Assembly (NCBI GenBank): GCA_030652805.1
Contig: JAUSPT010000032.1
Location: 1 to 64,000 of the forward strand
From: a bacterium
Lineage (GTDB): Bacteria; JAHJDO01
DNA: 64,000 bases
Reading direction: 5' to 3'
Part shown: positions 4,112 to 63,666 of the stretch, piece by piece
How the letters are laid out: every line of letters begins with the position of its first letter
Position numbering within the stretch: position 1 is the first letter of the stretch
Made by a program: the position numbers and the translations under genes
Notes under the pieces: generated by a model
Databases searched by the model: none
The model's input: the letters and a program-made list of their open reading frames with translations, nothing else
What the model was told of the DNA's origin: nothing

Positions 4112-4113
4112 AT

Positions 4114-5400: not shown

Positions 5401-5801
5401 GTTTTCTTATAGATTTTTTCTGGCTCAAAGAGCTCCTTTTCTACAACTGTAAAACCATCTTTATCATACTTTCTATAAAAACATGTTCTGTAGCCCGTAT
5501 GACATGCTCCACCTATCTGCTCAACCTTTATAAGAAGCGTGTCATTATCACAGTCTATAAGGATATCTTTTACTTTCTGAATATGTCCTGAAGTCTCCCC
5601 TTTTATCCACAACTTCTCTCTTGACCTGCTCCAGAAACATGTTCTTCTTGTTTTAAGTGTTGTTTCCAGAGACTCTTTATTCATATATCCCATCATTAAA
5701 ACCTTTGAGGTCTTAAAATCCTGAACTATTGCAGGAATCAATCCTTTTTTATCAAACTTCACTTGCTCTGCAAGCTTCTTTAAAATCAAATCTCTTTTCA
5801 T
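5397..5801 (-). CDS. hisI: Phosphoribosyl-AMP cyclohydrolase
   Basis: HisI opens the adenine ring of phosphoribosyl-AMP in histidine biosynthesis. The family signatures are clear: [40 protein letters not shown] and the Cys-rich [15 protein letters not shown] that supplies zinc ligands. A TTG at 5816 could add five residues, but GGGAAGG lies 6 nt before the ATG at 5801, so that start is used (134 residues). There is no HisE domain. The gene overlaps the end of hisA by about 50 nt, a tight translational arrangement in the hisB-hisA-hisI run. Confidence 0.93.
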
Positions 5802-7058: not shown

Positions 7059-7093
7059 CTTCTTCTCCATATTTTTATCCACTACAGCAAGAT

Positions 7094-8317: not shown

Positions 8318-8320
8318 AAT

Positions 8321-9394: not shown

Positions 9395-9397
9395 AAG

Positions 9398-9943
9398 CTA
9401 ACTCGCTTTCTTAAAATCTAATCTTTGACTTATTATTAAAATTAGTTTTGCTGATAGATAACCGATCATGCTGCCTGCAACTATATCTAATGGATAATGA
9501 ACTCCTATATAGACTCTGGAGAATGCAACCAGAAAAGCCAATAAATAAAATAATAGCCATTTTTTATAATAACCAGACAACACTGCAGCCGTTGAAAAAG
9601 CAGTCTGAGAATGGCCTGATGGAAATGAGCCTACATATAATTTTTGTCCATATATATTCATATCCATAAATTGAGACAATGGCCTGGGTCTCTGAATAAG
9701 CTCTTTCAAGATATGAACAACTATGCCTCCCAAAAAGATAGTAATTAGTGATATGACGAGTATTAATAAAGCATTTTTTCTGTCAAAGATTAATATGCTT
9801 ACTACTATAAGTGGGATTAGGAAAAAACCATTTCCTAGTTGCGTCAATGTGAACATTACGAATCCCATACATGAATTCCAGAGATGCTGATTAATAAATA
9901 GGAAAATTGACTGGTCTATTGATATAATGTAGTCAAGCATCAA
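9398..9943 (-). CDS. PAP2-family membrane phosphatase
   Basis: This 181-residue integral membrane protein has the PAP2 acid-phosphatase signature in full: KELIQRPRP, then PSGHSQTAF with the catalytic His, then SRVYIGVHYPLDIVAG. Five or six hydrophobic segments surround it. Family members remove phosphate from phosphatidate, undecaprenyl diphosphate or similar lipids on the periplasmic face; which one is used here cannot be told. It is wedged between hom (4-nt overlap) and thrC (3 nt), an unexpected partner for amino-acid genes. Confidence 0.88.
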   Translation of the reverse strand: MMLDYIISIDQSIFLFINQHLWNSCMGFVMFTLTQLGNGFFLIPLIVVSILIFDRKNALLILVISLITIFLGGIVVHILKELIQRPRPLSQFMDMNIYGQKLYVGSFPSGHSQTAFSTAAVLSGYYKKWLLFYLLAFLVAFSRVYIGVHYPLDIVAGSMIGYLSAKLILIISQRLDFKKAS

Positions 9944-11193: not shown

Positions 11194-11213
11194 CCCGGTC
11201 TCCACTGATTTCA

Positions 11214-11402
11214 TTAGAAAACTTGAACCATATCTTTTTTAGGTACATATATAATGACAGGATCATTATGCCCTTTTTTAGCAGCTTTTTCATAAACTTC
11301 ATTAACATGATCTCCGCTACTAATAACTGTATCGTCTTCAAAGCTTTTAAGTGCTACATACTGCCCACTATATTTTTTTTCTTTTACCAACTGAACGGTC
11401 AT
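11214..11402 (-). CDS. DUF5678 small protein
   Basis: This protein of 62 residues matches the DUF5678 pattern as I know it: YSGQYVALKSF, then VISSGDHVNEVYEKAAKKG and a final hydrophobic stretch VIIYVPKKD. The family has no established biochemical function. It is common as a tiny stand-alone protein in candidate-phylum genomes. It lies directly upstream of hom on the same strand. About 95 nt of DNA with no evident gene separate it from the preceding lipoprotein gene. Confidence 0.7.
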   Translation of the reverse strand: MTVQLVKEKKYSGQYVALKSFEDDTVISSGDHVNEVYEKAAKKGHNDPVIIYVPKKDMVQVF

Positions 11403-11498
11403 TGTTATACCCTTCCCCTTTTTTCAGCCTATTAGTCACTTCGCTTTTACCTTAGTATTACGATATCACAATGGGATATGTCCCTATTTATTCATTAA

Positions 11499-11795
11499 TC
11501 AATCATTTTCGTGTACTGCAGATACTCTGCCATAAATGAACTTAACATAATAAACTTTTAAAATCCCTTTATAAACCCACCATTCTTCTTTTACTTCTAT
11601 TCCAGAAAAAGAAGTAGAATGAGAAATGCGTTTACGTGTAGGTGCACCACAAAGAGACATAACTTCACTTTGGGACATACCAATCTTAACTTTTTTTGAA
11701 ACATCTCCAGAGAGAAGACCGCAGGAACTAAGAAGAAAAGAACATATGAGAGTTATTGCAATCCAGAGTTTCTTGCCCTTCAGTTCATTTTTCAT
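11499..11795 (-). CDS. Small lipoprotein, SmpA/OmlA- or DUF2845-like
   Basis: The protein of 98 residues has a signal peptide ending in a lipobox LLSSC, so it should be lipidated and anchored in the envelope. The mature part contains KIGMSQSEVMSLCGAPT, matching the G.s..eV...cG.P motif shared by BamE/SmpA-like and DUF2845 proteins, then strand-like segments. An ATG at 11816 is upstream, but GGAAGGGG lies just before the ATG at 11795. That ATG overlaps the stop of the preceding small gene (ATGA), suggesting coupled translation. Confidence 0.6.
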   Translation of the reverse strand: MKNELKGKKLWIAITLICSFLLSSCGLLSGDVSKKVKIGMSQSEVMSLCGAPTRKRISHSTSFSGIEVKEEWWVYKGILKVYYVKFIYGRVSAVHEND

Positions 11796-12001
11796 AATAC
11801 CCCTTCCATTCTCCATTTTTTCAATATACCCTTTTCTTTAGAGTTTAGCTTTTCAGAATGATCTAATAGCTTGGCTACTATTTTTACATTAGTATTTTTA
11901 TTAATTTTATTTTGAGGAAGCATGCTAGAAACACCTATTGCCTCTTCTTTGTATTTTAATAGCCATTCTGTCTGTTCTTTTACCAACTTTACTCTGCACA
12001 T
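11792..12001 (-). CDS. Hypothetical 69-residue protein
   Basis: No family is recognised. The protein is basic and Lys-rich, probably helical, with no membrane segment. Support for it being real: GGGAGG lies 5 nt before the ATG at 12001, and its stop overlaps the start of the lipoprotein gene. It begins about 25 nt after the truncated HEPN frame and might have been joined to that locus by a deletion. Confidence 0.45.
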   Translation of the reverse strand: MCRVKLVKEQTEWLLKYKEEAIGVSSMLPQNKINKNTNVKIVAKLLDHSEKLNSKEKGILKKWRMEGVL

Positions 12002-12025
12002 TTTGCCTCCCTTTCCGTTATTTTA

Positions 12026-12118
12026 TCATAAACTGCTGGTTTTATTTTTTAGAAAAGATTCTATTTCTTCAATGGCTTGTTTTACGTCATAAAGATATTT
12101 TTTGATTTCAAGCAACAT
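12026..12118 (-). pseudogene. Truncated HEPN (DUF86) toxin-like frame
   Basis: A 30-codon frame begins at an ATG that overlaps the end of the MNT gene by 11 nt. It reads MLLEIKKYLYDVKQAIEEI followed by ESFLKNKTSSL and a stop. This is how HEPN/DUF86 proteins begin; intact ones run about 100-140 residues and carry an RX4-6H catalytic motif, absent here. The MNT-then-HEPN order with overlapping frames is the normal toxin-antitoxin layout. I read it as the remnant of the toxin after a deletion. A short functional peptide is possible but unlikely. Confidence 0.5.
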
Positions 12119-12410
12119 AAATATTCTTTCTCGTACGATTTAAACTTTCTTTTAAAAATGGGTTTCTAACCGACCCTTCAATTATAATGTCTACGGATCT
12201 ATGGAAGACATTTCTTAATCTTTCTTTAAGCTCAAAATATCTATCAAAAAGATTGTCGTTTTCTTTTTGAGCAAATTCAACAATTATGTCTATATCACTA
12301 CCTGCTCCAAAGTTATCGTTTGTAGCTGACCCAAATAAATCTAATTTTTTAAGATGCAATTCATTGCAAATTTTACTAACTTTTCCTTCATAGGGTTTTA
12401 TGTCTAACAT
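12108..12410 (-). CDS. mntA: MNT-type minimal nucleotidyltransferase (antitoxin-like)
   Basis: This protein of 100 residues belongs to the small nucleotidyltransferases that act as antitoxins by AMPylating HEPN toxins. The active-site motif is intact: LFGSATNDNF followed by GSDIDIIVEF, with the two metal-binding Asp residues, and a third acidic strand at VDIII. The length is normal. The partner HEPN gene downstream is cut to 30 codons, so the antitoxin appears to have lost its target here. The gene symbol follows the MntA/HepT naming and is by family analogy. Confidence 0.7.
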   Translation of the reverse strand: MLDIKPYEGKVSKICNELHLKKLDLFGSATNDNFGAGSDIDIIVEFAQKENDNLFDRYFELKERLRNVFHRSVDIIIEGSVRNPFLKESLNRTRKNIYVA

Positions 12411-12527
12411 ATTTTTTACTCCTTGAATACTAACTGAATTGTATCACATAATCTTATCATTTTAAATACATGCCTGAGATTAAATCAGGGGCACATCCTA
12501 TTTATTCCAAAGACATGTAACATATTA

Positions 12528-12683
12528 TCAATAGTCATCTTCCTTCAGTCTTATTCTTTTGAAGAGATTCTCTACGGGGATACCTTTTGTTCCATCCGCT
12601 ATAGCCATTCTACCAGCCTGAACAGCTTTTATAGTTTCTTTATCCTGAAGTTCATCAAGAACATCTGTAAGAATATTCGTCAT
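12528..12683 (-). CDS. Small antitoxin-like protein (51 residues)
   Basis: A 51-residue frame starts at an ATG overlapping the aspC stop (ATGA) and ends at 12528. The sequence (LQDKETIKAVQAGRMAIADG, then GIPVENLFKRIRLKEDD) has the KA...G......V..LF.R pattern of the C-termini of Phd/YefM-type antitoxins, but it is too short to assign. No toxin gene is adjacent. Translational coupling to aspC is the main reason to believe it is expressed. The stretch 12411-12527 upstream of the MNT gene holds nothing recognisable. Confidence 0.4.
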   Translation of the reverse strand: MTNILTDVLDELQDKETIKAVQAGRMAIADGTKGIPVENLFKRIRLKEDDY

Positions 12684-13876
12684 CTCAATTCTTTCAATGC
12701 GGATTCCATTCTATCAATACCTTCTTTTATGTTCTCCATTGATGTAGCGTATGACATCCTGATGTGGTATGGAGAGCCAAAGGCAGATCCAGGAATAACG
12801 CCGACTTTGGCAATGTCCAACAGGAAATTACAAAAATCAATATCTGTATTTATTCTGTTGCCATTATATTCTTTCCCGTAATACGCAGATATATTCGGGA
12901 ATACATAAAAAGCCCCTTTCGGCTTCTGGCATGAGACATTGTCCATATCATTTAATCTTCCTACAATATAATCGCGTCTTTTCCCGAACTCATTTACCAT
13001 TTTAGCAACATCGTTTGTTTTTTTCTGTATGGCAGTTAAAGCCGCTTTTTGAGAAATGGATGTCGGATTGGATGTGCTCTGGCTCTGAAGTTTGCCTGCT
13101 GCTTTTATTATGTCTGTATCTCCAGCCGCGTAGCCAATTCTCCATCCTGTCATGGAATAGGTTTTTGAAACTCCATTTACTACTATGGTGCGTTCTTTAA
13201 TATCACTATTCAAAGACGCTATGCTAATATGTTGTATACCGTCATAAATTATTTCCTCATATATCTCATCTGCAATTACATAAATATCATGTTTGCAAGC
13301 AATATCTGCAATCTCCATTAATTCATCCTTTGAGTACACGGTTCCACATGGATTTGAAGGGCTGTTAATAATCAGAATTTTTGTTTTCTCTGTTATAGCA
13401 TTCTCCAATTCATCAGGTAAGATTTTAAAAGCATTCTTTTCAACGCCTTGTATAAAAACAGGTTTTGCACCGGCAAGCTTTACCATATCAGGATAGCTAA
13501 CCCAATATGGTATAGGGATAATAACCTCATCATCCGGATTACACATAACCTGAATGAGGTTATAAAGGGAATGCTTTGCTCCGCATGAGACAATAACTTG
13601 TTCCGACGTATAATCCAGCCCATTATCATTTCCAAACTTATCGCAAACTGCCTTCTTAAGTTCCAATGTTCCTGAAGCAGGTGTATATTTTGTGAAGCCA
13701 TTCTTTATTGAAGATATAGCAGCATTCTTAATATATTCAGGAGTATCAAAATCTGGCTCTCCAGCACTAAAACCAATTACATCTATCCCTTGCGCGCGCA
13801 ATGTCTTTATTTTGGCACTGATAGCTAATGTAGCTGATGGCTTTATGCTTTTTATTCTATCAGATAATTTTTGCAT
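12680..13876 (-). CDS. aspC: Class I aminotransferase, aspartate aminotransferase-like
   Basis: This 398-residue PLP enzyme is of the aminotransferase I fold (subgroup Ib by look). Landmarks: GFSAGEPDFDTPEYIK, YTPASG, NSPSNPCGTVYSKDE, VIADEIYEEI, the PLP lysine in VSKTYSMTGWRIGYAAG, and the substrate Arg near IRMSYATS. Such enzymes mostly transaminate aspartate, sometimes prephenate or aromatic amino acids. AGGAG for this gene lies inside the end of the lipoyl-domain gene 4 nt upstream. The start matches family members. Confidence 0.88.
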   Translation of the reverse strand: MQKLSDRIKSIKPSATLAISAKIKTLRAQGIDVIGFSAGEPDFDTPEYIKNAAISSIKNGFTKYTPASGTLELKKAVCDKFGNDNGLDYTSEQVIVSCGAKHSLYNLIQVMCNPDDEVIIPIPYWVSYPDMVKLAGAKPVFIQGVEKNAFKILPDELENAITEKTKILIINSPSNPCGTVYSKDELMEIADIACKHDIYVIADEIYEEIIYDGIQHISIASLNSDIKERTIVVNGVSKTYSMTGWRIGYAAGDTDIIKAAGKLQSQSTSNPTSISQKAALTAIQKKTNDVAKMVNEFGKRRDYIVGRLNDMDNVSCQKPKGAFYVFPNISAYYGKEYNGNRINTDIDFCNFLLDIAKVGVIPGSAFGSPYHIRMSYATSMENIKEGIDRMESALKELR

Positions 13877-13880
13877 TTAA

Positions 13881-14123
13881 CTATTCTCCTATCTCTGCCA
13901 TCTTCTGTCCAACCCTGACTATGTCTCCCTCTTTGACAAGAATATCCTTCAAAACACCAGATACTGGCGCAGGAACATTAAACGTAGCCTTATCTGTCAG
14001 CATCTCAATTACATCATCTCCTTTGTTTATATTATCCCCTTTTTCGCACATCCAAAAGGAAACCGTTGCTTCTTCAATCCCCTCTCCAAGTTCCGGCAAA
14101 ATAAAATCCACGCTATTATTCAT
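13881..14123 (-). CDS. Stand-alone lipoyl domain protein (E2 type)
   Basis: At 80 residues this is a single lipoyl domain and nothing else. The swinging-arm lysine is in MLTDKATFNVPAPVSG, the family's E.TDKA..ev.aP.sG motif. The N-terminus FILPELGEGIEEATV is that of 2-oxoacid dehydrogenase E2 subunits rather than of glycine-cleavage GcvH. Subunit-binding and acyltransferase domains, which normally follow, are absent; the frame ends cleanly just before aspC. lipA, lipB and lpdA are close by, so the lipoylation and reoxidation partners are present but the E1/E2 core is not. Confidence 0.82.
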   Translation of the reverse strand: MNNSVDFILPELGEGIEEATVSFWMCEKGDNINKGDDVIEMLTDKATFNVPAPVSGVLKDILVKEGDIVRVGQKMAEIGE

Positions 14124-14198
14124 ACTTTAAATTATTCCAAAATTTCTTGCTACGGATTATATAACATAACTACTCCTGCAATCAATAACAATAACGTC

Positions 14199-15053
14199 TC
14201 AGCTTGCAGATGCAAACAGCTCATCTGCCTTATATGAACTTCTGACAAAAGGACCTGAAGCAATAATAAAACCTTTATCTTCGGCAAATTTTTTATATTC
14301 CTCAAACATTTCAGGCGTAATAAATTCTTTAACAGGAAAGTGATTTTGTGACGGAGATAAATATTGACCGAGCGTTAATAAATTACAGCCAACGCTGCTT
14401 AAATCGTCCATAACTCTTAAAACTTCTTTTTTTGTTTCTCCAAGCCCCAGCATTATACCTGATTTAGTGACTATTTTTGAATCAAACTCTTTTATCATTC
14501 CAAGCAAATTAAGAGATATTCTATAATTTGCTTCCTGCCGCACATTCTCATATAAACTTGGAACAGTCTCGAGATTATGACCAAATACATCAGGCTTGCT
14601 CCGAGCAACCTGTTCTACACAATCCTCTTTGCCTTTAAAGTCAGGCGTAAGAATCTCTATTACAACATCCGGGATATTGCTTCTAATATCCATTATAACA
14701 TCTGCAAATTGGCCCGCTCCATAATCCTTGAGATCATCTCTTGTTACGGAAGTTATAACAACATATTTTAATCTTAATTCATAAACCGCCTTGCTTAATC
14801 TTTTCGGCTCATTTTTATCAACTGACAAAGGGATGCCATGCTTTACTGCACAAAATCTACAGTTTCGCGTGCAAACATCCCCGAGTATCATAAAAGTCGC
14901 AGTATGACGAGAAAAACATTCGCCTATATTGGGACACTTTGCGCTTTCACATACTGTATTTAAGCTTAGTTTTTTAAGAATATGCCTTGTCTCTTCTGTA
15001 GCCTTTATATCAGGTATTCTTTTTTTGAGCCAATCAGGTAATCTTTTATGCAT
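14199..15053 (-). CDS. lipA: Lipoyl synthase
   Basis: LipA is a radical-SAM enzyme that inserts two sulfurs into a protein-bound octanoyl group. Both iron-sulfur motifs are intact: the auxiliary cluster Cys35, Cys40 and Cys46 in CESAKCPNIGEC, and the radical-SAM CX3CX2C at Cys61, Cys65 and Cys68 (CTRNCRFC). The C-terminal RSSYKADE supplies the conserved serine that ligates the auxiliary cluster. Length 284 is normal. Its start overlaps the end of lipB, giving the usual lipB-lipA pair, and it lies 75 nt before the lipoyl-domain gene. Confidence 0.97.
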   Translation of the reverse strand: MHKRLPDWLKKRIPDIKATEETRHILKKLSLNTVCESAKCPNIGECFSRHTATFMILGDVCTRNCRFCAVKHGIPLSVDKNEPKRLSKAVYELRLKYVVITSVTRDDLKDYGAGQFADVIMDIRSNIPDVVIEILTPDFKGKEDCVEQVARSKPDVFGHNLETVPSLYENVRQEANYRISLNLLGMIKEFDSKIVTKSGIMLGLGETKKEVLRVMDDLSSVGCNLLTLGQYLSPSQNHFPVKEFITPEMFEEYKKFAEDKGFIIASGPFVRSSYKADELFASAS

Positions 15054-52854: not shown

Positions 52855-53838
52855 TCATTCCATGCTTTTTCTCAGTTCATCTATAGACACTGTGGCTGTT
52901 CCAAGCTTCCCAACAACAATACCTGCAGCATGATTTGCAATATATGCAGATTCATACATTGATGCTTTATTTCCAAGACACAATGCAAGCACTCCAACAA
53001 CTGTATCTCCTGCTCCGGTTACATCAAAAACCTCTTTTGCAACAGTTGGAATATTGGCTACTTTGCCGTCTCTTTCAAAAAGGGACATTCCCTTCTCTCC
53101 GCGAGTGATTAATATTGAATTTGCCTGTAATAACTTTAATAAACTCTTCCCTACCCGCACTAAACTTTGTTCATCCTTTATCTCTGTTTTAAGACTCTCT
53201 CCCGCTTCATGATTATTTGGTGTTATCATAGTTACGTTCTTGTAATATGTAAGATGTCTTGGTATAGGGTCAACAATAATTGGATAATTAAATTCTCTGT
53301 TCAACTTTATAATTTGTTTAACTAGATACCGTGTTACAATGCCCTTCCCGTAATCAGATATGACAATGGCAGAAATTTCACGCATATTGGATTTGATATA
53401 TGCAAGTATTCTTTTTGCTTCTGTAGACTTAATCTGGCTGACAAATTCCTTATCTGTCCTGACAACTTGCTGATGTTGAGCAATGATTCTTGTCTTCACT
53501 ATAGTTGGTCTTTTCTTGCTTAGAATAATTCCATCCTCATTCATGCCCTGTTTCTTTACCAACTGCAGAAATTCTTCTCCTGCAATATCGTCTCCAATAA
53601 TTCCTGTAATTAATGCCTCTGCACCAAGTGCACATATATTATTTGCAACATTAGATGCGCCACCCATCATAATAGATTCGGAGCTGATTTTAACAACAGG
53701 CACAGGCGCTTCTGGGGAAATGCGCTCCACAGTGCCCCAGACAAATCTATCAAGCATCAGATCGCCTACAACAAGCACTTTTGTGCTCTTAAACCCTGCT
53801 ATCACGTGTCTCAACTGGTTTATATCTATACCTTTCAT
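52855..53838 (-). CDS. rfaE1: Heptose-7-phosphate kinase (RfaE domain I)
   Basis: A PfkB-family kinase of 327 residues that phosphorylates D-glycero-D-manno-heptose-7-P at C1 for lipopolysaccharide core. Landmarks: LVVGDLMLDRFVWG, PEAPVPVVK, MGGASNVANNICALGA, and the ATP-site FDVTGAGDTVVGVLAL. The adenylyltransferase half (domain II) is not fused. It overlaps the oxidoreductase gamma gene by 4 nt. Its presence supports an LPS-bearing outer membrane. Confidence 0.92.
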   Translation of the reverse strand: MKGIDINQLRHVIAGFKSTKVLVVGDLMLDRFVWGTVERISPEAPVPVVKISSESIMMGGASNVANNICALGAEALITGIIGDDIAGEEFLQLVKKQGMNEDGIILSKKRPTIVKTRIIAQHQQVVRTDKEFVSQIKSTEAKRILAYIKSNMREISAIVISDYGKGIVTRYLVKQIIKLNREFNYPIIVDPIPRHLTYYKNVTMITPNNHEAGESLKTEIKDEQSLVRVGKSLLKLLQANSILITRGEKGMSLFERDGKVANIPTVAKEVFDVTGAGDTVVGVLALCLGNKASMYESAYIANHAAGIVVGKLGTATVSIDELRKSME

Positions 53839-54365
53839 GCCTTGAATCCTCTCTCTAATGCCTTAACATTTATTGGGATAAGATTATGTCTCCTGGGAGG
53901 AAGGATTTTTTCTAAAGCTGACTTTAGAAAATCCAGCTTTACCTCACCAGTTTCCCTCGCAAATGCTCCTAAAACAATCATATTTGCTACCTTCAGATTC
54001 TCAAGCCCAATTGCCATATCATTTGCAGGAACTTCTACAACTCTTATTTTAGTCCTTATATCCTTATTTATTTTTACCAGACTACTGTTCGCAATTATGA
54101 GTCCATCATTCAAAACAAGTTTGGAAAATTTATCCAATGATGCCTGGTTCATTACAATAAGCGTATCCGGATGTGATATAAATGGAGAAGCTATTTCTCT
54201 TTCCGATATAATAACTGAGCAATTTGCAGTTCCTCCACGCATTTCCGGCCCGTATGAAGGAAGAGAGGTAACGTGTTTACCTTCTTTCATGCCGGCATAT
54301 GCCAGCATCTTACCCATTGACACTATTCCCTGCCCGCCAAAACCTGCTACAAGAATCCGCTGCAT
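53835..54365 (-). CDS. vorC: 2-oxoacid:ferredoxin oxidoreductase, gamma subunit
   Basis: This subunit of 176 residues belongs to the POR/KOR/VOR enzymes that oxidise 2-oxoacids to acyl-CoA with ferredoxin. It shows AGFGGQGIVSMGKMLAYAG, SYGPEMRGGTANCSVI and MNQASLDKF, typical of the gamma domain. The beta and alpha subunits lie 5.6 kb upstream at 59959 and 60702, and a restriction block has been placed between them. AAGGTGG precedes the ATG. The symbol is by analogy with VOR-type operons. Confidence 0.88.
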   Translation of the reverse strand: MQRILVAGFGGQGIVSMGKMLAYAGMKEGKHVTSLPSYGPEMRGGTANCSVIISEREIASPFISHPDTLIVMNQASLDKFSKLVLNDGLIIANSSLVKINKDIRTKIRVVEVPANDMAIGLENLKVANMIVLGAFARETGEVKLDFLKSALEKILPPRRHNLIPINVKALERGFKA

Positions 54366-54383
54366 CTAAAAACCACCTTTCAT

Positions 54384-54455
54384 GTCATTGCGAGTCAAAG
54401 GCGAAGCAATCTCGTCTTCTGGGATTACTTCGTCGCTAATACTTCTCGTAATGAC
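54384..54455. repeat. Palindromic GTCATTGCGAG-type dispersed repeat
   Basis: A 72-nt imperfect palindrome starts GTCATTGCGAG and ends CTCGTAATGAC, with AGGCGAAGCAATCTCGTC in the left arm and GATTACTTCGTCGCT in the right. This is the widely seen repeat found scattered in many bacterial genomes between genes. It sits between MTase2 and the gamma gene, at the left edge of the inserted block, so it may mark or have aided the junction. Only one copy is in the window. Confidence 0.75.
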
Positions 54456-54483
54456 ATCTTTAATCATATTCTAAAAATTAAGT

Positions 54484-55167
54484 TTAAATTTTCTGCATAA
54501 TGAACAGTTGCTTAAACCCTCGTAAATAAAAGTTGAATTCTCTTGCTCGTTTATGCCAAATTCCTGTATTGGATGTTTGATTGTGCCGTGTAACACATAT
54601 CATATCAACTGGTTTAAAATATTTTTCTAAAATAGCATACATTTGGAAACCAACTGGGATAAATCCAGTTTTTTTGCGCCAGTGGTCTCCAATAAGCCAT
54701 GCCATATACTTTCCTATTTTTAAAATCCGATGCGTTTCCTTTGCAACTTTTCCTAATTCTTCAAAGAATTTTGTGCTTTCGCAAGAAATGTTACCAATAT
54801 TATCAGGGTGTTCATTATATTTTATATTATCCGAATAAGGCGAATCAATAAAAACAAAATCTGCGACTTCATTATCCAATGGTAATTTTCTAGCATCAGC
54901 TTGTTTTATATCTGCTCTGTAAGGCACTATATCAAATCCTAGCACCTCTCGATTTTCTTCCTTACAAACATCGATAGTAGTTCCACTTCCACACATAGGG
55001 TCAACCACCAAATCTCCTTCTTTTGTGTACCTTTGAAGTAAGTTCCAGACAATAAATGCAGGCGTAACACCTGGATATTTATTATTACCGTGTGGTTTAT
55101 CCCCATAATTTTGGGTTGGAAAATCCCATAATGTTGTTGTTTCGAATGATGGGGTGGTATTTTTCAT
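54484..55167 (-). CDS. DNA methyltransferase 2 (N4/N6 amino type)
   Basis: A 227-residue adenine-N6 or cytosine-N4 methyltransferase. Motif X-like NKYPGVTPAFIV (about 29-40), SAM motif I DPMCGSGTT (56-64), and catalytic motif IV DSPY (108-111), which has Ser for the usual middle Pro. Order X-I-IV means no large target-recognition insert before IV. Its position at the end of a block with a nuclease gene suggests it protects one strand or site. It may be too small for full recognition on its own. Confidence 0.85.
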   Translation of the reverse strand: MKNTTPSFETTTLWDFPTQNYGDKPHGNNKYPGVTPAFIVWNLLQRYTKEGDLVVDPMCGSGTTIDVCKEENREVLGFDIVPYRADIKQADARKLPLDNEVADFVFIDSPYSDNIKYNEHPDNIGNISCESTKFFEELGKVAKETHRILKIGKYMAWLIGDHWRKKTGFIPVGFQMYAILEKYFKPVDMICVTRHNQTSNTGIWHKRAREFNFYLRGFKQLFIMQKI

Positions 55168-55168
55168 G

Positions 55169-56419
55169 TCACCACCTTATATTTTTATCAAAAACCTTTT
55201 GCACTATGAATAAAAGTAATTTGTTAATTTCTATAAAAGTATTTTGTTCACTTTCACTTAGGTTGCTAACACTACTTTTCTCTGCTTCCTTTGTGTGAAC
55301 AACATTATTTCTAATTAAATAAATAATATCTGACAATAGATTAGCCATTTTATCTTTATCCCAGTTATTCGGCTCTATATCATTTTTGTTTATAACATCT
55401 TCACAAAATTTCTTAAAATTCTGAATTTTTGCAAATTCTTCCTTTATAAAAGGGAAATCATTTGAAATATCTTCAATTACTAATTTCAGCATCCCTCTTT
55501 CGCTTTTAGCATTTTCAATCTGTTTAAATTCTTTTTTAGTTTTAAGCTCCTTAAGGCCTTTTATATAATTATAAAAGTATTTATAAAAATAAGACTCCAA
55601 AGCATGATATAGTTCCAGAAATTGATAACTTGGATCTAAGTTTTCCATTGCTGATATATAAAATTTTAGTGAGTCAATATTATATTGTTTTTTGTTTGAT
55701 AATAACAAGGAATCCGTAGCTTTATCGTAGATTTCATTAATGTTTTGTGGCATATTTATTTTAAAAGGAGTGCGTGTCTTACGTTCAGTAAGTCCTAGGT
55801 CGGTACATAACCTGTATAATAACTTTTCTTGTAAAGTTTCTTTATCTTTTTTTACCTTTAAAATATATTTCATGGGCTTAAACAAGGAACAAAAATTAAT
55901 GTATATGTCAGTATCTACACTGAAAACATAATGATTCCTAATAAGCCTTTCTCTAAGTTGAAAAATATAGATAGGCAATACCTCCTTTGGATAATATAAG
56001 TCTTCTTTACTATCTTCATTTATGAAGAAATATCCCCAGCAATATCTCCTTTTGGATAGAGAACTTTTGGACAGAGGGAATAAGTCTGAGTTCTCTTCAT
56101 CTTTTAAATTCACAAGAGGAGATTCTTTTAGTTCCAGATAAATATAGTTATTTAACTCTAATCTTTGACCAATAGGTTTAGCGAACTCAATTGCAGTTTT
56201 GTTTAAGAATAAAATATCAAATATAGGTTTAGAGAATTTAATCTTTAACTTTGAAAAATCAACTCCATACTCTTTATTATCTCTTTTGTAGACAGCACTC
56301 TTTAGGGAGTCCAAGAATTCTGGTTTACTTTTCCACAAGCTATCTATTATCTCTTGAGGATACAAGGATATAACTTCAGAGTAGAACTTTATAGCCTTTT
56401 GTTCATTTATATTGACCAT
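55169..56419 (-). CDS. Hypothetical protein with HEPN-like C-terminus
   Basis: No full-length family is recognised in the 416 residues. About residues 270-400 look like a HEPN fold: ALESYFYKYFYNYIKG and, near residue 370, RNNVVH (RX4H), the catalytic pattern of HEPN RNases. The N-terminal half is mixed alpha/beta with no clear motif. It lies between the DGxQR-like gene (5 nt) and MTase2 (1 nt), tightly in the block. Start: a frame reaches 56449, but AAGGA favours the ATG at 56419. RNase toxin or sensor roles are inference. Confidence 0.55.
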   Translation of the reverse strand: MVNINEQKAIKFYSEVISLYPQEIIDSLWKSKPEFLDSLKSAVYKRDNKEYGVDFSKLKIKFSKPIFDILFLNKTAIEFAKPIGQRLELNNYIYLELKESPLVNLKDEENSDLFPLSKSSLSKRRYCWGYFFINEDSKEDLYYPKEVLPIYIFQLRERLIRNHYVFSVDTDIYINFCSLFKPMKYILKVKKDKETLQEKLLYRLCTDLGLTERKTRTPFKINMPQNINEIYDKATDSLLLSNKKQYNIDSLKFYISAMENLDPSYQFLELYHALESYFYKYFYNYIKGLKELKTKKEFKQIENAKSERGMLKLVIEDISNDFPFIKEEFAKIQNFKKFCEDVINKNDIEPNNWDKDKMANLLSDIIYLIRNNVVHTKEAEKSSVSNLSESEQNTFIEINKLLLFIVQKVFDKNIRW

Positions 56420-56424
56420 GGACA

Positions 56425-57633
56425 TTATCCTTGAGTTGCCCTTTGCCATATCATCTCGAAGTTATTTTCACCTCCAAGGAATTCATTAAATCCATGAAAG
56501 AAAAAGTTTCTAAGGGTAATACCGATCTTTTTTGATCGGGCTTCTTCATCTTCAAGAATATTGCTTAGAATTCTGAGTTTTAATGGGTCTTCAATATTTT
56601 CATCAAAAATTCTGAAGAATTCGCTTTTCCTACTTTCGTAATTTTCATTATTTCTATTTCTATAGTTCCCACATGACGCGAAAAATCCTGACAAAAAAGG
56701 TGCAGAATTCATAAAACCGTTTCTTGATGTCCACTCTAACGATTTTTCATTTCCAAAATCATCTGACTCTTTCATTCTTTCCCTATACTTCTTCCAAAGT
56801 TTCTCATCTAAATTAAATAATAAATTTGAGAATTGTTCTATATCATCGTCACTGCACAATTTCAATGTATCTGAATGTTCTTCAATAAATCGCATCCTTT
56901 CCAGTTCTGCCACAACTATATTTGTTTTATCCACTATTGGATCACGAGTATTAAAAGCAGTAAGAGCTTCAACTATGTTTGCAAAACTATACTGATATGG
57001 TTTTTTTGAAGGAGAAGAATCTTTGTACGTAGAAAATCTCATATCTTCTATTCCACGTTTTGTGGCAATATTTGATATCGCTTCTTTAAGTGGTATATAT
57101 AGAATTTCGAGTTGATGGCGCATACTCATTTTAAATTGTCCTGTATTTAATACCAATATCTTATACAAGAGAGCGTTTGTTTTTATAGAGTACCACAACT
57201 CAGCTCTTATTCTCGAACTTTTGAAGTGCTTTAATTTTTCAGGTTTATCTTTCAATTCGTCAATTACATTTAAAATACAATATGTTCTTTGCAAACCATC
57301 TAATATTGAAAGCGATTTCTCATTTACTTTATCGTTTATTATATCTTCTATTCTTTTCGTATCTTCAATATCCTTTATGCTATCTGAAAATTCTCTGCTT
57401 GCCACCAATGAAAGTGGGGGCATAATTGTATTGCTTTTTAAATCTTCTTTTAAACGATTATAGACATCATTTTTTCTGGAAATAACTTTCCCTCTCTGTA
57501 TGGGCAAATTCTCTAAATTGTTTTTGACTAATTCAATGTAGTTACCGATACCTATATCTATTAGCAAACATTTTCCACTTACTTTCTTATCTTCCTTTAA
57601 GTCAAATACTCTAATTTTATTATTTATGCCCAT
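56425..57633 (-). CDS. DGxQR-motif protein (ParB/DndB-like)
   Basis: The 402-residue protein has LDGLQRTYCIL at 111-121 and VLNTGQFKMS at 161-170. These match the DGQ(Q/H)R and N-T-G motifs shared by DndB-like (DGQHR), DUF262 and ParB-type proteins, which act in phosphorothioation and restriction systems. The rest is unrecognised and helical at the C-terminus (about 290-400). GGAG precedes the ATG. It overlaps the 89-residue gene by 14 nt and ends 5 nt before the HEPN-like gene. Nuclease, NTPase or regulator roles cannot be separated. Confidence 0.5.
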   Translation of the reverse strand: MGINNKIRVFDLKEDKKVSGKCLLIDIGIGNYIELVKNNLENLPIQRGKVISRKNDVYNRLKEDLKSNTIMPPLSLVASREFSDSIKDIEDTKRIEDIINDKVNEKSLSILDGLQRTYCILNVIDELKDKPEKLKHFKSSRIRAELWYSIKTNALLYKILVLNTGQFKMSMRHQLEILYIPLKEAISNIATKRGIEDMRFSTYKDSSPSKKPYQYSFANIVEALTAFNTRDPIVDKTNIVVAELERMRFIEEHSDTLKLCSDDDIEQFSNLLFNLDEKLWKKYRERMKESDDFGNEKSLEWTSRNGFMNSAPFLSGFFASCGNYRNRNNENYESRKSEFFRIFDENIEDPLKLRILSNILEDEEARSKKIGITLRNFFFHGFNEFLGGENNFEMIWQRATQG

Positions 57634-57889
57634 TTTTCACTCCTTTTAAAGTTTTCTCCTTACTGTTTTTGTCCCAATTATAATAAGTCTCCATTACTTT
57701 GTTATACATCTCACTTTCAAATCTTTCATCCCTTTTGGCACCAAGAATATTGCTCAAATGGACTTGTGCAAAAAGTAAATACTCTCTCCGTTTGATAACG
57801 TCTGGTGGATATGGTGTAAAATTGGGTCTATTAACAAAGAGTTCATAGTCAATTTTCTTGAATTCTTGCTCAATTTGTTTCTTGGTCAT
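57620..57889 (-). CDS. Hypothetical 89-residue protein in restriction block
   Basis: Not recognised. The sequence is charged and aromatic (NRPNFTPYPPDVIKRREYLL) with predicted helices and no signal or membrane segment. GGAGAG lies about 8 nt before the ATG, and the frame overlaps both neighbours (nuclease, 20 nt; DGxQR gene, 14 nt). It is clearly translated with them. A small accessory or inhibitor of the nuclease is one guess. Confidence 0.5.
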   Translation of the reverse strand: MTKKQIEQEFKKIDYELFVNRPNFTPYPPDVIKRREYLLFAQVHLSNILGAKRDERFESEMYNKVMETYYNWDKNSKEKTLKGVKNGHK

Positions 57890-58565
57890 TTTTTATTCTC
57901 TCCTTCAATAATAATTTTTTTAAATCTTGAAATATTTGATTAAAATTCTTTACCTTTTTGCTTTCTTCGATGTCTCTGAATATATATGAACCGTCTAACT
58001 CGTATTCAGCAATTATTCTGCTTTTCGTTATATCTTTATCTTTGTAAGTAAATATCGTATCATTATCAGTAGAGACAAGCACTATTTTTATATCCTTCGT
58101 TATTTTGCTTGTTCTTAATTTCAACTTCCAATAAGCAGCCTGTGCAACTCTTTCTCTCAGACTGGCCTTACATGAAATAATCATTTTTACAGAACAGTCA
58201 CTTTTATTATAGACTATTATGTCAGCATCAGGTACTACTGAGTGTTTATCATAAAACACTTCCACATTTCTACGTACTTTATCTAATTTCTCATTCAGCT
58301 TTTTCCTTGAAAGTCTGTTATCGTTTGTTATACCAATATTCTCGTCTAAATTTTGGATAAAATCCTTAACAATGAAAGTTATCAACTTTTGCAGATTATG
58401 CCCACTCCAGCTATTCCATGCTTGATTAGGATCTTTTCCTCTCCTCATAGCTTCACTTTTGTACTTTTTTTTAATATCAGAGAATATCTTACTCACGAAA
58501 TTAAAGTCATTTGGACTTTTCTCCCTTTCCATTAAATATATTTTTTTCAAGTCCTTAAAAGTCAT
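57870..58565 (-). CDS. Type II-like restriction endonuclease, PD-(D/E)xK, BsaWI-like
   Basis: A nuclease candidate of 231 residues. GKDPNQAWNSWSGHNLQKLI around 43-62 is a pattern often seen in type II enzymes. PDAD at 112-115 and SCK at 131-133 form a PD...xCK variant, and SLRERV at 135-140 follows. The SCK..LRERV combination recalls BsaWI-type enzymes that cut WCCGGW, as I remember them; this is not verified. It lies between MTase1 (4 nt) and the 89-residue gene. Sequence specificity is unknown. Confidence 0.65.
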   Translation of the reverse strand: MTFKDLKKIYLMEREKSPNDFNFVSKIFSDIKKKYKSEAMRRGKDPNQAWNSWSGHNLQKLITFIVKDFIQNLDENIGITNDNRLSRKKLNEKLDKVRRNVEVFYDKHSVVPDADIIVYNKSDCSVKMIISCKASLRERVAQAAYWKLKLRTSKITKDIKIVLVSTDNDTIFTYKDKDITKSRIIAEYELDGSYIFRDIEESKKVKNFNQIFQDLKKLLLKERIKNDQETN

Positions 58566-58569
58566 AATC

Positions 58570-59940
58570 TCACTCCTTTAAACCAATTACAATATACTCG
58601 ACAGGATATGCTTGCGAATTCGCATTGTCATTACTTGCAAACCTGCCAGTCTTTTCATCTCTTTTCTGCGGAAGTATCTTTGAAGGGATTTCTCTTTTTA
58701 TAATCCTGTCAAGTTTAAAGCCTGAATGTTGCAAACTTTCCGCAAAGACTTCTGCATTTAGTATGTTTACTCCTTTAAGTTTAGTATCGCCAATGACATA
58801 GCAACATCTGCTACCATGCTTTAAAATTCTGAAACTTTCATCAAATACTTCTTCCATATCAATAAAAAATGCTTCGATTTCTTTTGCCATTTTCTTGCTT
58901 TTTGTAGACATTTCAAAAACAATGTCCCTAGCAATTTCACTTTTTAATTCTTTGTCTTCGTACCCTTTGTATGAAGTCCCAATAAACTCTTTTTTGTATT
59001 CCCCTAAATCATCTACCAAGTCAAACCAGATTGTTGATAACTGATGTAAATCAGCATATTCATAGCTTGTAACATAAGGACTTGAACTTACTATTAAGTC
59101 AACACTCTCATCAGAAACAGGTTGTCTCCTTGCATCATCAATCTTGATGTTTAGATAATTATTTAGGTTCTTTCCCATTAATCTCTCAGGAATAACACGA
59201 TAAAAAGCTTCATTACCTCTCTGCATTTTCCTTAAATGCCTTCGCAATACGTTATAGGGCTTTATCTGCTGTTTTTTAAAATCTCTTGTTGGTTTTGTGC
59301 TCACCTGTAACCATATAGAACAATTTTTCAAGATGTGACTGAAAGCAACGAGGAAAAAGTCCCTGATAGTCCTATCTTTTTCGTTATAAATAACTCTTAA
59401 TATTTTCCCAAGCTCAATCTTATTTTCTGTAGTGAACCAGTAATTAATTCTGTCTACATGTTTTTGTGGAATTAAAGGATTGATTTGTTGTCCATCCAAA
59501 AATTTTAATCTTGATAAAATTTTTATTATTTTTTTATCAAGATATTCAGGATTTATAGGTGTTGCCTTTACTTTCGTCATTAGACAAGCTATTTTATTAA
59601 TATCTGTTCCACTAGCTTTAAAGCCTCTCGATATTGCAGTGACTATAGTAGTTCCACAACCCATAAATGGATCATTTATATGGGCGTTCTCATCAGATAT
59701 GTATTCATCAACAAGTTTTTCAACCAACTGAGGAATAAATTTAGCGGGATAACGATGATAACAATGAGTCCATTTAGCAGTATCTGACGGCTTATACTCT
59801 ATAAAAGACCAATCTTTATCAATTTCTTTTTTATTAAAAACTTTGATAATTTTGTTAGCTAGATTTTCTCTTTCAGATTCAATAAATTGAACAGGAAAAA
59901 TACCTTCATGGATGTTTGTATTGACTACAGCTCTCTGCAT
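58570..59940 (-). CDS. DNA methyltransferase 1 (likely N4-cytosine type)
   Basis: A 456-residue methyltransferase. Motif X-like HRYPAKFIPQLVEKLV, SAM motif I DPFMGCGTT (about 90-98), then a long middle region that may hold target recognition, and motif IV SSSPYVTSYEY (about 285). SSPY is close to SPPY, typical of N4-cytosine enzymes. A GTG at 59958 exists, but GAGGA precedes the ATG at 59940. It lies 19 nt after vorA, so it opens the inserted block and would be read from the oxidoreductase promoter unless it has its own. Confidence 0.88.
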   Translation of the reverse strand: MQRAVVNTNIHEGIFPVQFIESERENLANKIIKVFNKKEIDKDWSFIEYKPSDTAKWTHCYHRYPAKFIPQLVEKLVDEYISDENAHINDPFMGCGTTIVTAISRGFKASGTDINKIACLMTKVKATPINPEYLDKKIIKILSRLKFLDGQQINPLIPQKHVDRINYWFTTENKIELGKILRVIYNEKDRTIRDFFLVAFSHILKNCSIWLQVSTKPTRDFKKQQIKPYNVLRRHLRKMQRGNEAFYRVIPERLMGKNLNNYLNIKIDDARRQPVSDESVDLIVSSSPYVTSYEYADLHQLSTIWFDLVDDLGEYKKEFIGTSYKGYEDKELKSEIARDIVFEMSTKSKKMAKEIEAFFIDMEEVFDESFRILKHGSRCCYVIGDTKLKGVNILNAEVFAESLQHSGFKLDRIIKREIPSKILPQKRDEKTGRFASNDNANSQAYPVEYIVIGLKE

Positions 59941-59958
59941 TTCTCTTTCCTCAAGCAC

Positions 59959-60699
59959 CTATCCGCTTTTATCCTTAATCACCCCAAGAGGATAAGTCTT
60001 TATTAACGTATTATCAATCCACTCCGCAGCTTTCTGTGGAGTCATAGCAAGGTTAACAGGACACTGAGACAGAACCTCAACCATTGAAAACCCCTTGTCT
60101 TCCAGCTGTACTTGAAAAGCTTTTTTGATGGCTTTTTTAGCTTTAATAATATTTGCCGGTTTATTCACTGCCACTCTTTCTATATAAATAGATCCATCCG
60201 TAATAGCCAGCATTTCTGAGATTTTTATTGGGTATCCAATTAGCCTGGCATCTCTGCCTAAAGGAGTTGTTGTTGTCTTTTGACTAAGTAATGTTGTGGG
60301 AGCCATTTGTCCGCCTGTCATTCCATATACGGTATTATTTACAAATATTGTGGTTATTCTTTCCCCGCGATTTGCTGCATGAATTATCTCTCCTGTGCCT
60401 ATAGCAGCAAGATCTCCATCTCCTTGATATGTAAATACAACTTTATCAGGATGAACCCGCTTTATTCCTGTTGCAACAGCAGGTGTTCTTCCATGCGCAG
60501 CTTCAGTCATATCTATATTAAAATAATGATACATAATAACTGCGCACCCAACAGGAGGAACTCCAATAGTTCTATCCTGAATGCCAAGTTCATCTATTAC
60601 CTCACCTATTAACCTATGGACAATCCCATGCCCACAACCCGGGCAATAATGAAATGGTTTGTCTGTCATAGATCTTGGCCTGCCAAATATCTTCTTCAT
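59959..60699 (-). CDS. vorA: 2-oxoacid:ferredoxin oxidoreductase, beta subunit
   Basis: The TPP-binding subunit, 246 residues. YCPGCGHGIVHRLI carries the metal-near cysteines, and GDGDLAAIGTGEIIHAANR with VNNTVYGMTGGQMAPTT is the TPP-binding core of KOR/VOR beta subunits. It starts 3 nt after vorA's partner, the alpha gene. Together with alpha, gamma and delta it makes a four-subunit ferredoxin enzyme. Substrate choice (2-ketoisovalerate, ketoglutarate or pyruvate) is inferred from alpha only. Confidence 0.9.
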   Translation of the reverse strand: MKKIFGRPRSMTDKPFHYCPGCGHGIVHRLIGEVIDELGIQDRTIGVPPVGCAVIMYHYFNIDMTEAAHGRTPAVATGIKRVHPDKVVFTYQGDGDLAAIGTGEIIHAANRGERITTIFVNNTVYGMTGGQMAPTTLLSQKTTTTPLGRDARLIGYPIKISEMLAITDGSIYIERVAVNKPANIIKAKKAIKKAFQVQLEDKGFSMVEVLSQCPVNLAMTPQKAAEWIDNTLIKTYPLGVIKDKSG

Positions 60700-60701: not shown

Positions 60702-61784
60702 CTATTCTTTCTTTTTTGTGCCTTTGTGCCTTTGTACCTCTAATTCTTTAATTCTATTTACTATCTCTTCTGACGTAGGAACTCCTCCACCCATTCTTCC
60801 ATAAAAATACACAGGGCATCTTCCCAGAACCGCAAGTTTTACATCTTCAACCATCTGTCCTGCGCTCATCTCCACAGTAAGAACATACCTGACATTATTA
60901 CTTATCTTTCTTATTATTGCTGATGGATAAGGCCATAATGTGATAGGTCGAATCAACCCGGCTTTTATCCCCTCTTTTCTCAAAAGAAACACAGATTCTT
61001 TGCAAATTCGAGCGCACATTCCATAAGCTACCAGTATTATCTCTGCGTCATCTGTCAACACTGCTTCGTATTCTACAAGCTCTTTCTCTATTCTTCTATA
61101 CTTGTTCTGAATTTTCTTATTATGCTCTTCCAACTCTCCAACTTTCAGCATCAGAGTCCTGATTATATTTGCCCTGCGGCCTTTTGCGCCGGTAAGCGCC
61201 CATGTTTTTGGGGGAAGCTTCAACTCTTTTATTTTTCTTATTTCCAATGGCTCCATCATTTGCCCGAGGAAACCATCTCCCAATATCATCACAGGATTTC
61301 GGTATTTATCTGCCAGGTAAAAAGCTCTGGCTGTCCAGTCATAAAGCTCCTGAACAGAGGCAGGCCCGATTGTAATAAGTCTATAATCTCCATGTCCTCC
61401 ACCTTTTACTGCCTGAAAGTAATCTGCCTGAGAAGGAGTTATATCTCCCAATCCCGGACCAGCACGCATTACATTCACAATTACACACGGCAGCTCTGCG
61501 CCTGCAATATAGGAGATTCCTTCCTGTTTAAGACTTATTCCAGGACTGGATGAAGATGTCATAGCTCTTGCGCCGGCCGCTGACGCGCCAAAGACCATGT
61601 TAATGGCAGCAAGCTCACTTTCAGATTGGATAAAGACACCTCCAAGTTCACCTAATCTCTCTGCCATATATGCGGTTAATTCATTCTGCGGAGTTATAGG
61701 ATAACCGAAATAATGCCTGCATCCCGCCTGAATCGCGGCCTCTCCAACAGCGCCATTTCCACTCATTAAGACTTTCTCTGTCAT
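60702..61784 (-). CDS. vorB: 2-oxoacid:ferredoxin oxidoreductase, alpha subunit (VorB-like)
   Basis: A 360-residue alpha subunit. GNGAVGEAAIQAGCRHYFGYPITPQNEL (partly listed) is the N-terminal domain, with the conserved ITPQ..L stretch. FIQSESELAAINMVFGAS and MTSSSSPGISLKQEG follow, and MRAGPGLGDITPSQADYFQA and GHGDYRLITIGPAS are close to 3-methyl-2-oxobutanoate (ketoisovalerate) enzymes. Acyl-CoAs from branched 2-oxoacids could supply fabH or ATP synthesis. It follows a GT39 gene by 10 nt. Confidence 0.88.
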   Translation of the reverse strand: MTEKVLMSGNGAVGEAAIQAGCRHYFGYPITPQNELTAYMAERLGELGGVFIQSESELAAINMVFGASAAGARAMTSSSSPGISLKQEGISYIAGAELPCVIVNVMRAGPGLGDITPSQADYFQAVKGGGHGDYRLITIGPASVQELYDWTARAFYLADKYRNPVMILGDGFLGQMMEPLEIRKIKELKLPPKTWALTGAKGRRANIIRTLMLKVGELEEHNKKIQNKYRRIEKELVEYEAVLTDDAEIILVAYGMCARICKESVFLLRKEGIKAGLIRPITLWPYPSAIIRKISNNVRYVLTVEMSAGQMVEDVKLAVLGRCPVYFYGRMGGGVPTSEEIVNRIKELEVQRHKGTKKKE

Positions 61785-61794: not shown

Positions 61795-63666
61795 CTATAT
61801 TAATCCAAGTAAGAATACCCCTTTTTTTGAATATAGGCAAGTAGTAAATCTGGCTATGAATTCATTGAACCTCTCCTCTGCACCGTATTTCCAGTTGAAT
61901 GAACGATATGTATTAGAGACTCTTTTGACCTCAGAGGCGTTATATAATATGTGTGTAATATGCGTGTCCCTCAATTTAGCATAAATAATGCTGGCATTCT
62001 CAGATGCGTTAGATATCTCCACAATATCGTTAACATCAAGAGGGCTACTTCCAACATAATCCCTATCGCAGTAGAAACTCTGATTCTCTCCTACGAATAG
62101 GATTTTACTATTTTCTGGTAACTTTTCATTAATAAATTTGAACGCACCATACTGGTAAAGATTTTTTGATAGGAATTCTTCCTTTGTTACTTTCCCATAC
62201 GCTGCATCAAAAAAGTTAAAACCAACAGTCGCTGCAAATTTAAATGTGTTCCAGCATAAAAATCCAATAACAAGAATGTGTAACACTATTGAAATTATCT
62301 TACTCTTTTTAAAATTAACCAGAGCATATGCTGTCAATATACTTGCAACGGCTAAACAAGGAAGCAAGAATCTAATTATCCGATGCGTAAAGAACATCCA
62401 GAGTATAAAAACTAGTATAGTGTATGATATAAGTATTTTTATATTCCTATTAAGCCTGGTAAAAAATAATACAGGCAATATTAACAAAATTACGCTCCCC
62501 TGCCTATCCAGAGGCATTTTCCATAATAGAGAGACAATATGCAATACGTTCATATCCTTTGATATGTGAAATCTTGTAAACCTCTGGACAAGTTCTCTGT
62601 TCCAGTCAATGCCGCCAAAGATGTTATAAAACAACGGATATACTGGGTTATGAGTATATATAAGATTCTTTATAAGCCATGGTAAAAAAGCGAGAGACGC
62701 AAAGAATATAAACAAGAGCACACTTTTGCATGTATTCTTGAGAATGCTCTCTTTCTTTTGAAGTATAAAAGTCATAATAAAAATAAGTGCAGTAGGAATA
62801 AAATATAATGCTCCTGTGTATTTAGTGCCGATTGCAAATCCACAAAATATACCGGCAAGCATTAACCATGTTGCCTCGTTCTTAGAAGACCAATTAAGAA
62901 TACAAAAAAGCATTAGTAGACCATAAAGCACTAATCCAAGATCATTAAAGGCATAGGTTGATGATAAACACGCTACAGGCATATTATAAAATATTGCGGC
63001 TGCCAAAAGGCCTACATTCCTGCCGAAGTATTTTCTTCCAGTAACAAAGATTGTTAAAACACATAAGATACCTATAGAAAAATGTATTAGTTTTGCCAAT
63101 ATCTCATCCTTTATTACTAGGGCAAGGGTATAGAACATCTCTGCTCCGAAAGGAAGATTTGAATACATATTGTGAGGGATAAAGAATATCCTGCCGGCTC
63201 TCACATAGAGTTTTGGAAATGCAAGATGGTATGAAAGGGTATCATAGTTCAAAGGAGGTGCCAATGCGCCTGTAAAGGCAAGAAATATTGTTAGTCCTAT
63301 TGATATTATCAAAAACTTGTTAAATGCGGAGATATATGGAAGTTGAGATATTATCTCTTTTGAAAATCTTTCAGAAAAGCTAGATTTTAATTTGCTAAAA
63401 AAGTATTTGATCTCCCTGATTGAAACTATGCATAGCATTAATAATACTGAGTACAGACAAAATCTATTTAACCCTTTAGCAAAACCAATAAGCAGCACTA
63501 GAATAGATAGTACTCCCAATCCCAGTCCAAATGATAGGGACATTTCCTCAAGAAGGGACTTCGTCCTCAATTTAAAAAGATCTAATAGCTTTTTACCAAG
63601 TCCTAAAATTGATGTAAAAATAAATGCGAGCAGAATAATCTGGGAGAATATATATTGGAATTTCAC
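61795..63666 (-). CDS. Membrane GT39-type glycosyltransferase
   Basis: An integral membrane protein of 623 residues with a dozen or more hydrophobic segments. PPLNYDTLSYHLAFPKLYV in the first large loop has the acidic Asp of polyprenyl-phosphate-sugar transferases, and YNMPVACLSSTYAFNDLG is the second. The C-terminal part is a soluble domain. It starts by overlapping the ferredoxin gene (4 nt) and ends 10 nt before vorB, so a glycosyltransferase lies inside an oxidoreductase operon, a placement with no obvious metabolic logic. Confidence 0.75.
   Translation of the reverse strand: MKFQYIFSQIILLAFIFTSILGLGKKLLDLFKLRTKSLLEEMSLSFGLGLGVLSILVLLIGFAKGLNRFCLYSVLLMLCIVSIREIKYFFSKLKSSFSERFSKEIISQLPYISAFNKFLIISIGLTIFLAFTGALAPPLNYDTLSYHLAFPKLYVRAGRIFFIPHNMYSNLPFGAEMFYTLALVIKDEILAKLIHFSIGILCVLTIFVTGRKYFGRNVGLLAAAIFYNMPVACLSSTYAFNDLGLVLYGLLMLFCILNWSSKNEATWLMLAGIFCGFAIGTKYTGALYFIPTALIFIMTFILQKKESILKNTCKSVLLFIFFASLAFLPWLIKNLIYTHNPVYPLFYNIFGGIDWNRELVQRFTRFHISKDMNVLHIVSLLWKMPLDRQGSVILLILPVLFFTRLNRNIKILISYTILVFILWMFFTHRIIRFLLPCLAVASILTAYALVNFKKSKIISIVLHILVIGFLCWNTFKFAATVGFNFFDAAYGKVTKEEFLSKNLYQYGAFKFINEKLPENSKILFVGENQSFYCDRDYVGSSPLDVNDIVEISNASENASIIYAKLRDTHITHILYNASEVKRVSNTYRSFNWKYGAEERFNEFIARFTTCLYSKKGVFLLGLI

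Follow-up and report, generated by a model that had tools for sequence, protein, structure and literature searches.

A putative Dazbog-type gene pair within a methylase-nuclease-methylase restriction cassette inserted into a 2-oxoacid:ferredoxin oxidoreductase operon

Results

Gene content of the interrupted operon

The window analysed here is a stretch of 64,000 nucleotides of bacterial DNA. ORF calling placed six co-directional minus-strand genes between the gamma subunit gene and the beta and alpha subunit genes of a 2-oxoacid:ferredoxin oxidoreductase. The genes are tightly packed in the operon direction, as had been described in an initial annotation of the sequence, with neighbours overlapping or a few bases apart and a clear ribosome-binding site on most of them. 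The features, in window coordinates, are as follows.

53835–54365, minus strand: gamma subunit of the oxidoreductase (flank; POR, PF01558, 5.4e-39)
54366–59961, minus strand: inserted segment of about 5.6 kb, replacing 8 bp (GAATAGTA) of the relatives' beta-gamma junction, as determined by blastn and junction alignment with genomes G002, G003 and G004
54366–54483, minus strand: non-coding spacer with a hairpin, its core being a repeat dispersed through the genus
54484–55167, minus strand: MtA, N6/N4-type DNA methyltransferase, 227 aa (PF01555, 3.2e-22)
55169–56449, minus strand: DzbB-like protein with a C-terminal HEPN domain, 426 aa (own HMM and R-x4-H motif)
56425–57633, minus strand: probable DzbA, ParB/DUF262-like DGLQR protein, 402 aa (PADLOC DzbA, PDLC03835)
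57620–57889, minus strand: orf89, small restriction-associated protein, function unassigned, with homologues only in G059, G174 and G254
57870–58565, minus strand: RE, CCGG-family PD-(D/E)xK restriction endonuclease of the BsaWI type, 231 aa (PF18643, RE_BsaWI, 2.8e-25)
58570–59940, minus strand: MtB, N6/N4-type DNA methyltransferase, 456 aa from ATG 59940 (462 aa from GTG 59958)
59959–60699, minus strand: beta subunit (flank; TPP_enzyme_C, PF02775), its last residue (Glu) lost at the junction
60702–61784, minus strand: alpha subunit (flank; PF01855, 8.5e-50; VorB subfamily)

All six open reading frames of the initial annotation were retained, and two of its boundaries were revised. ATG 59940, which is preceded by the ribosome-binding site GAGGAAAG, is a more probable start of the first methylase, MtB, than GTG 59958, and positions 54366–54483 are non-coding.

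Insertion between the gamma and beta genes

Relatives of the beta gene were found at 93–98% identity in three congeneric genomes (G002, G003 and G004), in each of which beta and gamma are adjacent, with a 2-bp gap to the gamma ATG. The relatives' beta gene ends in ...AGC GGA GAA TAG, or in GAT TAG in G004. Identity of the two flanks to the relatives was 97/95% (G002), 91/90% (G004) and 87/87% (G003), with matches running to position 54365 and resuming from 59962. In a DNA search with the insert, the cassette was absent from four congeners apart from the dispersed repeat and a partial MtB match in G002, the latter being a distant MtB relative beside a type I RM locus. Target-site duplication was not evident at the insert. 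The uninterrupted junction in three related genomes bears out the earlier proposal of an insertion that kept the direction of the operon; the segment is a real insertion. The event can also be dated, in that one species has the insert and three relatives have the empty site.

Vertical inheritance with subsequent losses was considered and judged less likely, the 8-bp empty site being common to the three junction-intact relatives and the genes being absent there.

The hairpin spacer at the cassette boundary has a core of roughly 80 bp, a MITE- or REP-like repeat with copies at several positions in congeneric genomes; this repeat may have taken part in recombination. RNA families were not found in the region, and a promoter scan gave no more sites than were obtained in shuffles. 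The possibility that unrelated contigs were joined at a repeat during assembly, which the repeat at the gamma-side junction and the 102-contig draft state of the genome would allow, is extremely improbable: the sequence read at the beta-side junction contains no such repeat, the cassette is flush between gamma and beta, both flanks align to the same loci in three relatives, and the repeat copies in the same genome match over only about 33 bp.

A 623-aa membrane protein (window positions 61795–63666) is encoded between the alpha and delta genes of the oxidoreductase operon. It is also found upstream of alpha in G002 and G003, while G004 has a different gene there.

A methylase-nuclease-methylase type II cassette

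MtB, RE and MtA constitute an ordinary methylase-nuclease-methylase (M-R-M) type II restriction cassette. The two DNA methyltransferases of the initial annotation both match N6_N4_Mtase (MtB with PF01555 at 7.2e-14 and with PADLOC MTase_II at 1.8e-54), MtB displaying the motifs DPFMGCGTT and SSSPYVTSYEYADLHQL. The proposed PD-(D/E)xK nuclease was identified as a member of RE_BsaWI, a family present in 16 of 385 genomes by family search. Residues D113, K133 and R137-E138-R139 of RE were invariant among 10 relatives, and the spacing of 20 between D and K equals that of D145 and K165, the catalytic residues of BsaWI, in which an R-(D/E)R motif is also found (PMC4652773). The order MtB-RE-MtA, with RE directly adjoining MtA, was observed in six unrelated genomes (loci L065, L066, L067, L068, L070 and L071, with MtB cut by the contig end in L071). 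The window cassette was therefore assigned to type II RM of the BsaWI/CCGG family by an endonuclease domain containing D, K and R-(D/E)-R and by cognate methylases in conserved M-R-M order.

Relatives of MtA and RE were not found in viral contigs, nor was RE matched on plasmids, and a PDB sequence search with RE gave no convincing match. Avoidance of CCGG or WCCGGW was not seen in 136 kb of sequence from the same genome, which bears nothing on a recent insert. In the same 136 kb, GATC and GGCC, but not CCGG, were clearly under-represented against Markov expectation, as they were in the relatives. At another locus of the family, L069 (G043:C154, 7513–8899), two BsaWI-family endonuclease genes lie in tandem behind one MtB-type methylase.

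A DzbA homologue and a divergent DzbB-like partner

Dazbog (DzbA-DzbB) was reportedly described by Millman et al. in 2022; a literature search on the gene name DzbA returned no relevant paper. The DGxQR-motif protein noted in the initial annotation matches PADLOC DzbA at 1e-80, and DGLQR, Q46-R47 and LN-GQ are invariant. A PDB sequence search with DzbA gave no convincing match. Its structural model (pLDDT 83.5) matches ParB, BrxU and SspE folds over residues 12–168, and comparison with PadC, which has a ParB-type fold, gave a Z-score of 7.6 over 99 residues with an rmsd of 2.9.

The HEPN-like protein, also noted previously, was found to keep the R-x4-H motif. Its identification as DzbB rests on an HMM of our own, gene position and motif because the PADLOC DzbB model (PDLC03836) gave no match to it at E ≤ 1. 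The HMM, built from 71 DzbB partners, scored the window protein at 24.8 bits (E 3.9e-7), compared with an E value of 0.76 for the best unrelated decoy, and detected the DzbB of locus L087, which had been missed by the ORF filter, at 1.5e-42. Profile comparison of the window protein with seven plasmid DzbB proteins returned a probability of 82.5. Residues Y281, E285, R380 and H385 were invariant in an alignment of 57 sequences, and R-x4-H was kept by 70 of the 71 DzbB proteins versus 20% in shuffles. The full-length model was poor (overall pLDDT 63.9), with only the C-terminal domain usable, and a Foldseek search with the full-length model found nothing. The C-terminal domain aligned best to a Csm6 and to the HEPN toxin 7ae8, the latter over 108 residues with an rmsd of 3.8 and a Z-score of 5.2, which is modest for a domain made of helices. 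These modest Z-scores support, but do not prove, the ParB and HEPN folds predicted from the models.

Adjacency of the two genes was observed broadly. A DzbB-type partner of 300–480 aa lies behind DzbA in 71 of 80 genome loci, the two genes are adjacent in 36 of 41 viral contigs, and a DzbB-type gene follows all seven of the plasmid DzbA genes inspected, six of these seven partners matching PADLOC DzbB (one at only 0.0012). A search of phage records with DzbA gave no match. As in Dazbog, the window has a DzbA homologue with a HEPN-type, DzbB-like gene directly behind it, and both DGxQR and R-x4-H are kept. It differs in that the pair is enclosed by a type II RM cassette, with orf89 ahead, and in that its DzbB has diverged beyond the reach of the PADLOC model. 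On these sequence grounds the DGxQR and HEPN proteins are assigned as a Dazbog-type DzbA/DzbB pair, of which DzbB is a distant member.

Nesting of the pair in the cassette

The orf89, DzbA and DzbB genes sit exactly between RE and MtA. The window cassette resembles other BsaWI-type type II RM systems with two methylases in its RE_BsaWI domain, D-x19-K spacing, R-E-R motif and two flanking N-type methylases. It differs by these three extra genes between RE and the second methylase and by its RE, which is only 34–39% identical to the other cassette REs, themselves mostly 57–80% identical to one another (47–54% for one). MtA is 67–79% identical to the MtA proteins of the six M-R-M cassettes, and MtB is 64–71% identical to the MtB proteins of other cassettes (43–47% for two divergent ones). 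The low identity of RE relative to the methylases suggests that the middle block may have been swapped as a unit; RE, orf89, DzbA and DzbB may thus have been exchanged together while the methylases on either side were conserved. A possible alternative is that RE alone diverged rapidly. A more general proposal is that methylase-flanked type II cassettes serve as exchange platforms, in which the methylases stay and the nuclease and a ParB-like/HEPN pair are swapped, the pair being tuned to resident methylation and triggered by foreign methylation or by lost restriction. This generalization is speculative and rather unlikely.

The defence block seen in the initial annotation was confirmed as an M-R-M type II cassette plus an apparent Dazbog-type pair. 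The suggestion made there that it may be an undescribed defence module was not supported, since three of the genes form the M-R-M cassette of six other genomes and two form the DzbA/DzbB pair. The novelty lies in one known module being nested in another; a second BsaWI-type M-R-M cassette enclosing a Dazbog pair was not found in the genomes searched, and we know of no description of one. The insertion and the identity of its parts, taken jointly, are held with high confidence. That defence genes can be embedded in other defence systems is already an established concept (Payne et al. 2024, cited in PMC12988326).

A parallel locus after ssrA and other RM contexts of DzbA

A second RM insertion was found in the same genome on contig C86, adjoining ssrA. 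Its gene order is methylase, PD-(D/E)xK-like gene, orf100, PD-T4-2_A, PD-T4-2_B and a C-terminal MtA remnant, the pair being recognized as PD-T4-2_A (DUF262) at 1.9e-153 and PD-T4-2_B (HEPN-type) at 8.1e-53. The ssrA site is empty in G003 and G004. G002 has this methylase there too, at 95% DNA identity, and behind it come a 136-aa gene, a gene for a DndB/DpdB-like DGQHR protein and one for a different type II REase. The methylase is thus kept at this site and the rest exchanged, a pattern that mirrors the window. PD-T4-2 (DUF262 with a MAE_28990-type HEPN protein) follows the same two-gene logic, but its protein families differ from those of the window pair, which gave no match to the PD-T4-2_A and PD-T4-2_B models. 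Two loci in one genome that join type II RM to DGxQR/HEPN pairs of different families point to repeated assembly of a two-layer design. In this genus the flank of ssrA acts as a hotspot of integration (L035, G000:C86, 5628–9095; L228, G002:C52; L229; L230).

Of the 80 DzbA loci, 12 had a detected methylase or HsdR/M gene no more than 7 kb away, a lower bound given the limited methylase seed set. Clear in-operon cases have the orders hsdM..hsdS-DzbA-DzbB-..-hsdR (L155), C5-methylase-DzbA-DzbB (L099), methylase, two genes, DzbA-DzbB (L133) and DzbA-DzbB-methylase (L122). Embedding in RM operons therefore recurs, as a minority arrangement, and an RM partner is not needed by Dazbog, since no methylase was detected within that distance at the other 68 loci. 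The L155 locus (2997–14261) is a Saprospiraceae type I RM operon in which a toxin-antitoxin-like pair accompanies DzbA-DzbB between the hsdS-like gene and hsdR. L133 (2066–9221), on a Roseburia contig, combines a D12-type methylase, two further N-type methylases and nuclease-like genes with DzbA-DzbB.

Discussion

The locus is fairly probably explained, as a whole, as a horizontally acquired two-layer defence cassette. In the first layer, RE would cut DNA at a site with a predicted CCGG core, and MtA and MtB would methylate the host's own copies of that site. In the second, DzbA, a putative NTPase-like sensor with a ParB/DUF262 fold, would detect foreign methylation or bypassed restriction and release DzbB, a presumed HEPN RNase, leading to cell shutdown. 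The NTPase and RNase activities and the trigger are predicted; the catalytic motifs of the cassette proteins are intact. The layers would be complementary, restriction removing unmodified DNA and DzbAB confronting phages that evade it by methylating their DNA. According to reviews, Dazbog is activated by phage methylases (PMC12409349) and requires its DUF262 protein, a probable reader of methylated DNA (PMC10952713). HEPN genes recur in RM operons and have been proposed, by analogy with PrrC, as second-line RNases (PMC3710099).

In favour of the two-layer cassette are the empty site in three congeners, M-R-M cassettes without the middle genes, DzbA-DzbB adjacency, the HMM match, the kept Y/E/R/H columns, the HEPN and ParB folds, these reviews and the C86 RM locus. 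Counted against it are the failure of the PADLOC DzbB model to detect the window protein, the 68 DzbA loci lacking a detected methylase and the two resident methylases, which a methylation-responsive Dazbog must tolerate. Functional coupling of the RM and DzbAB layers is only tentatively proposed, at somewhat below an even chance.

The RM cassette and the Dazbog pair may instead work independently, sharing no more than a promoter and a history of mobility, and this has a substantial prospect of being correct, if one slightly short of even. It agrees with the majority of DzbA loci, which have no methylase gene nearby, and with the existence of M-R-M cassettes without Dazbog. It does not readily account for the exact placement of the pair between RE and MtA, where genes overlap or nearly abut, for the position of DzbAB in L155, flanked by hsdS and hsdR, and in L099, immediately behind a C5-methylase, or for the C86 locus, where the order is repeated with a different pair.

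A guard mechanism like that of PrrC, with the RM enzymes holding the HEPN protein inactive until phage anti-restriction factors release it, is improbable. The linked EcoprrI type I enzyme silences PrrC, the same has been proposed for HEPN genes in RM operons (PMC3710099), and the HEPN motif here is intact. As in PrrC-EcoprrI, a HEPN gene is embedded in an RM operon, but the window RM is type II rather than type I, and its sensor is a separate ParB-like protein rather than a fused ABC ATPase; the HEPN protein has no ATPase domain and so falls outside PrrC/RloC, in which HEPN is fused to an ABC ATPase. Furthermore, DzbA-DzbB has no RM neighbour in most genomes, and the reported trigger of Dazbog is a phage methylase (PMC12409349). 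GmrSD, BrxU and SspE share with the window the ParB/DUF262 fold, the DGxQR motif and modification sensing, the last being a prediction for the window pair. The window differs in having a separate HEPN protein as the effector and no DUF1524 HNH nuclease; DUF1524, which accompanies DUF262 in type IV GmrSD systems, is absent from all six proteins.

A single new six-gene system with one joint function would suit the tight packing of all six genes in one direction but is very improbable, as the RM trio and the DzbAB pair are each complete without the other and the six-gene order, sought as the initial annotation had suggested, was not found elsewhere in the 385 genomes, plasmid records and viral contigs searched.

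The two-layer cassette would be of wider use because Dazbog, reportedly triggered by phage methylases, lies here between two resident methylase genes, making self versus foreign methylation addressable in one small cassette.

Searches with orf89 gave no match on plasmids or in phage records. Its homologue follows a methylase in G174 and a nuclease-like gene in G254, and in three of its four contexts (window 57620–57889 and loci L235, L236 and L237) the family adjoins restriction or methylase genes.
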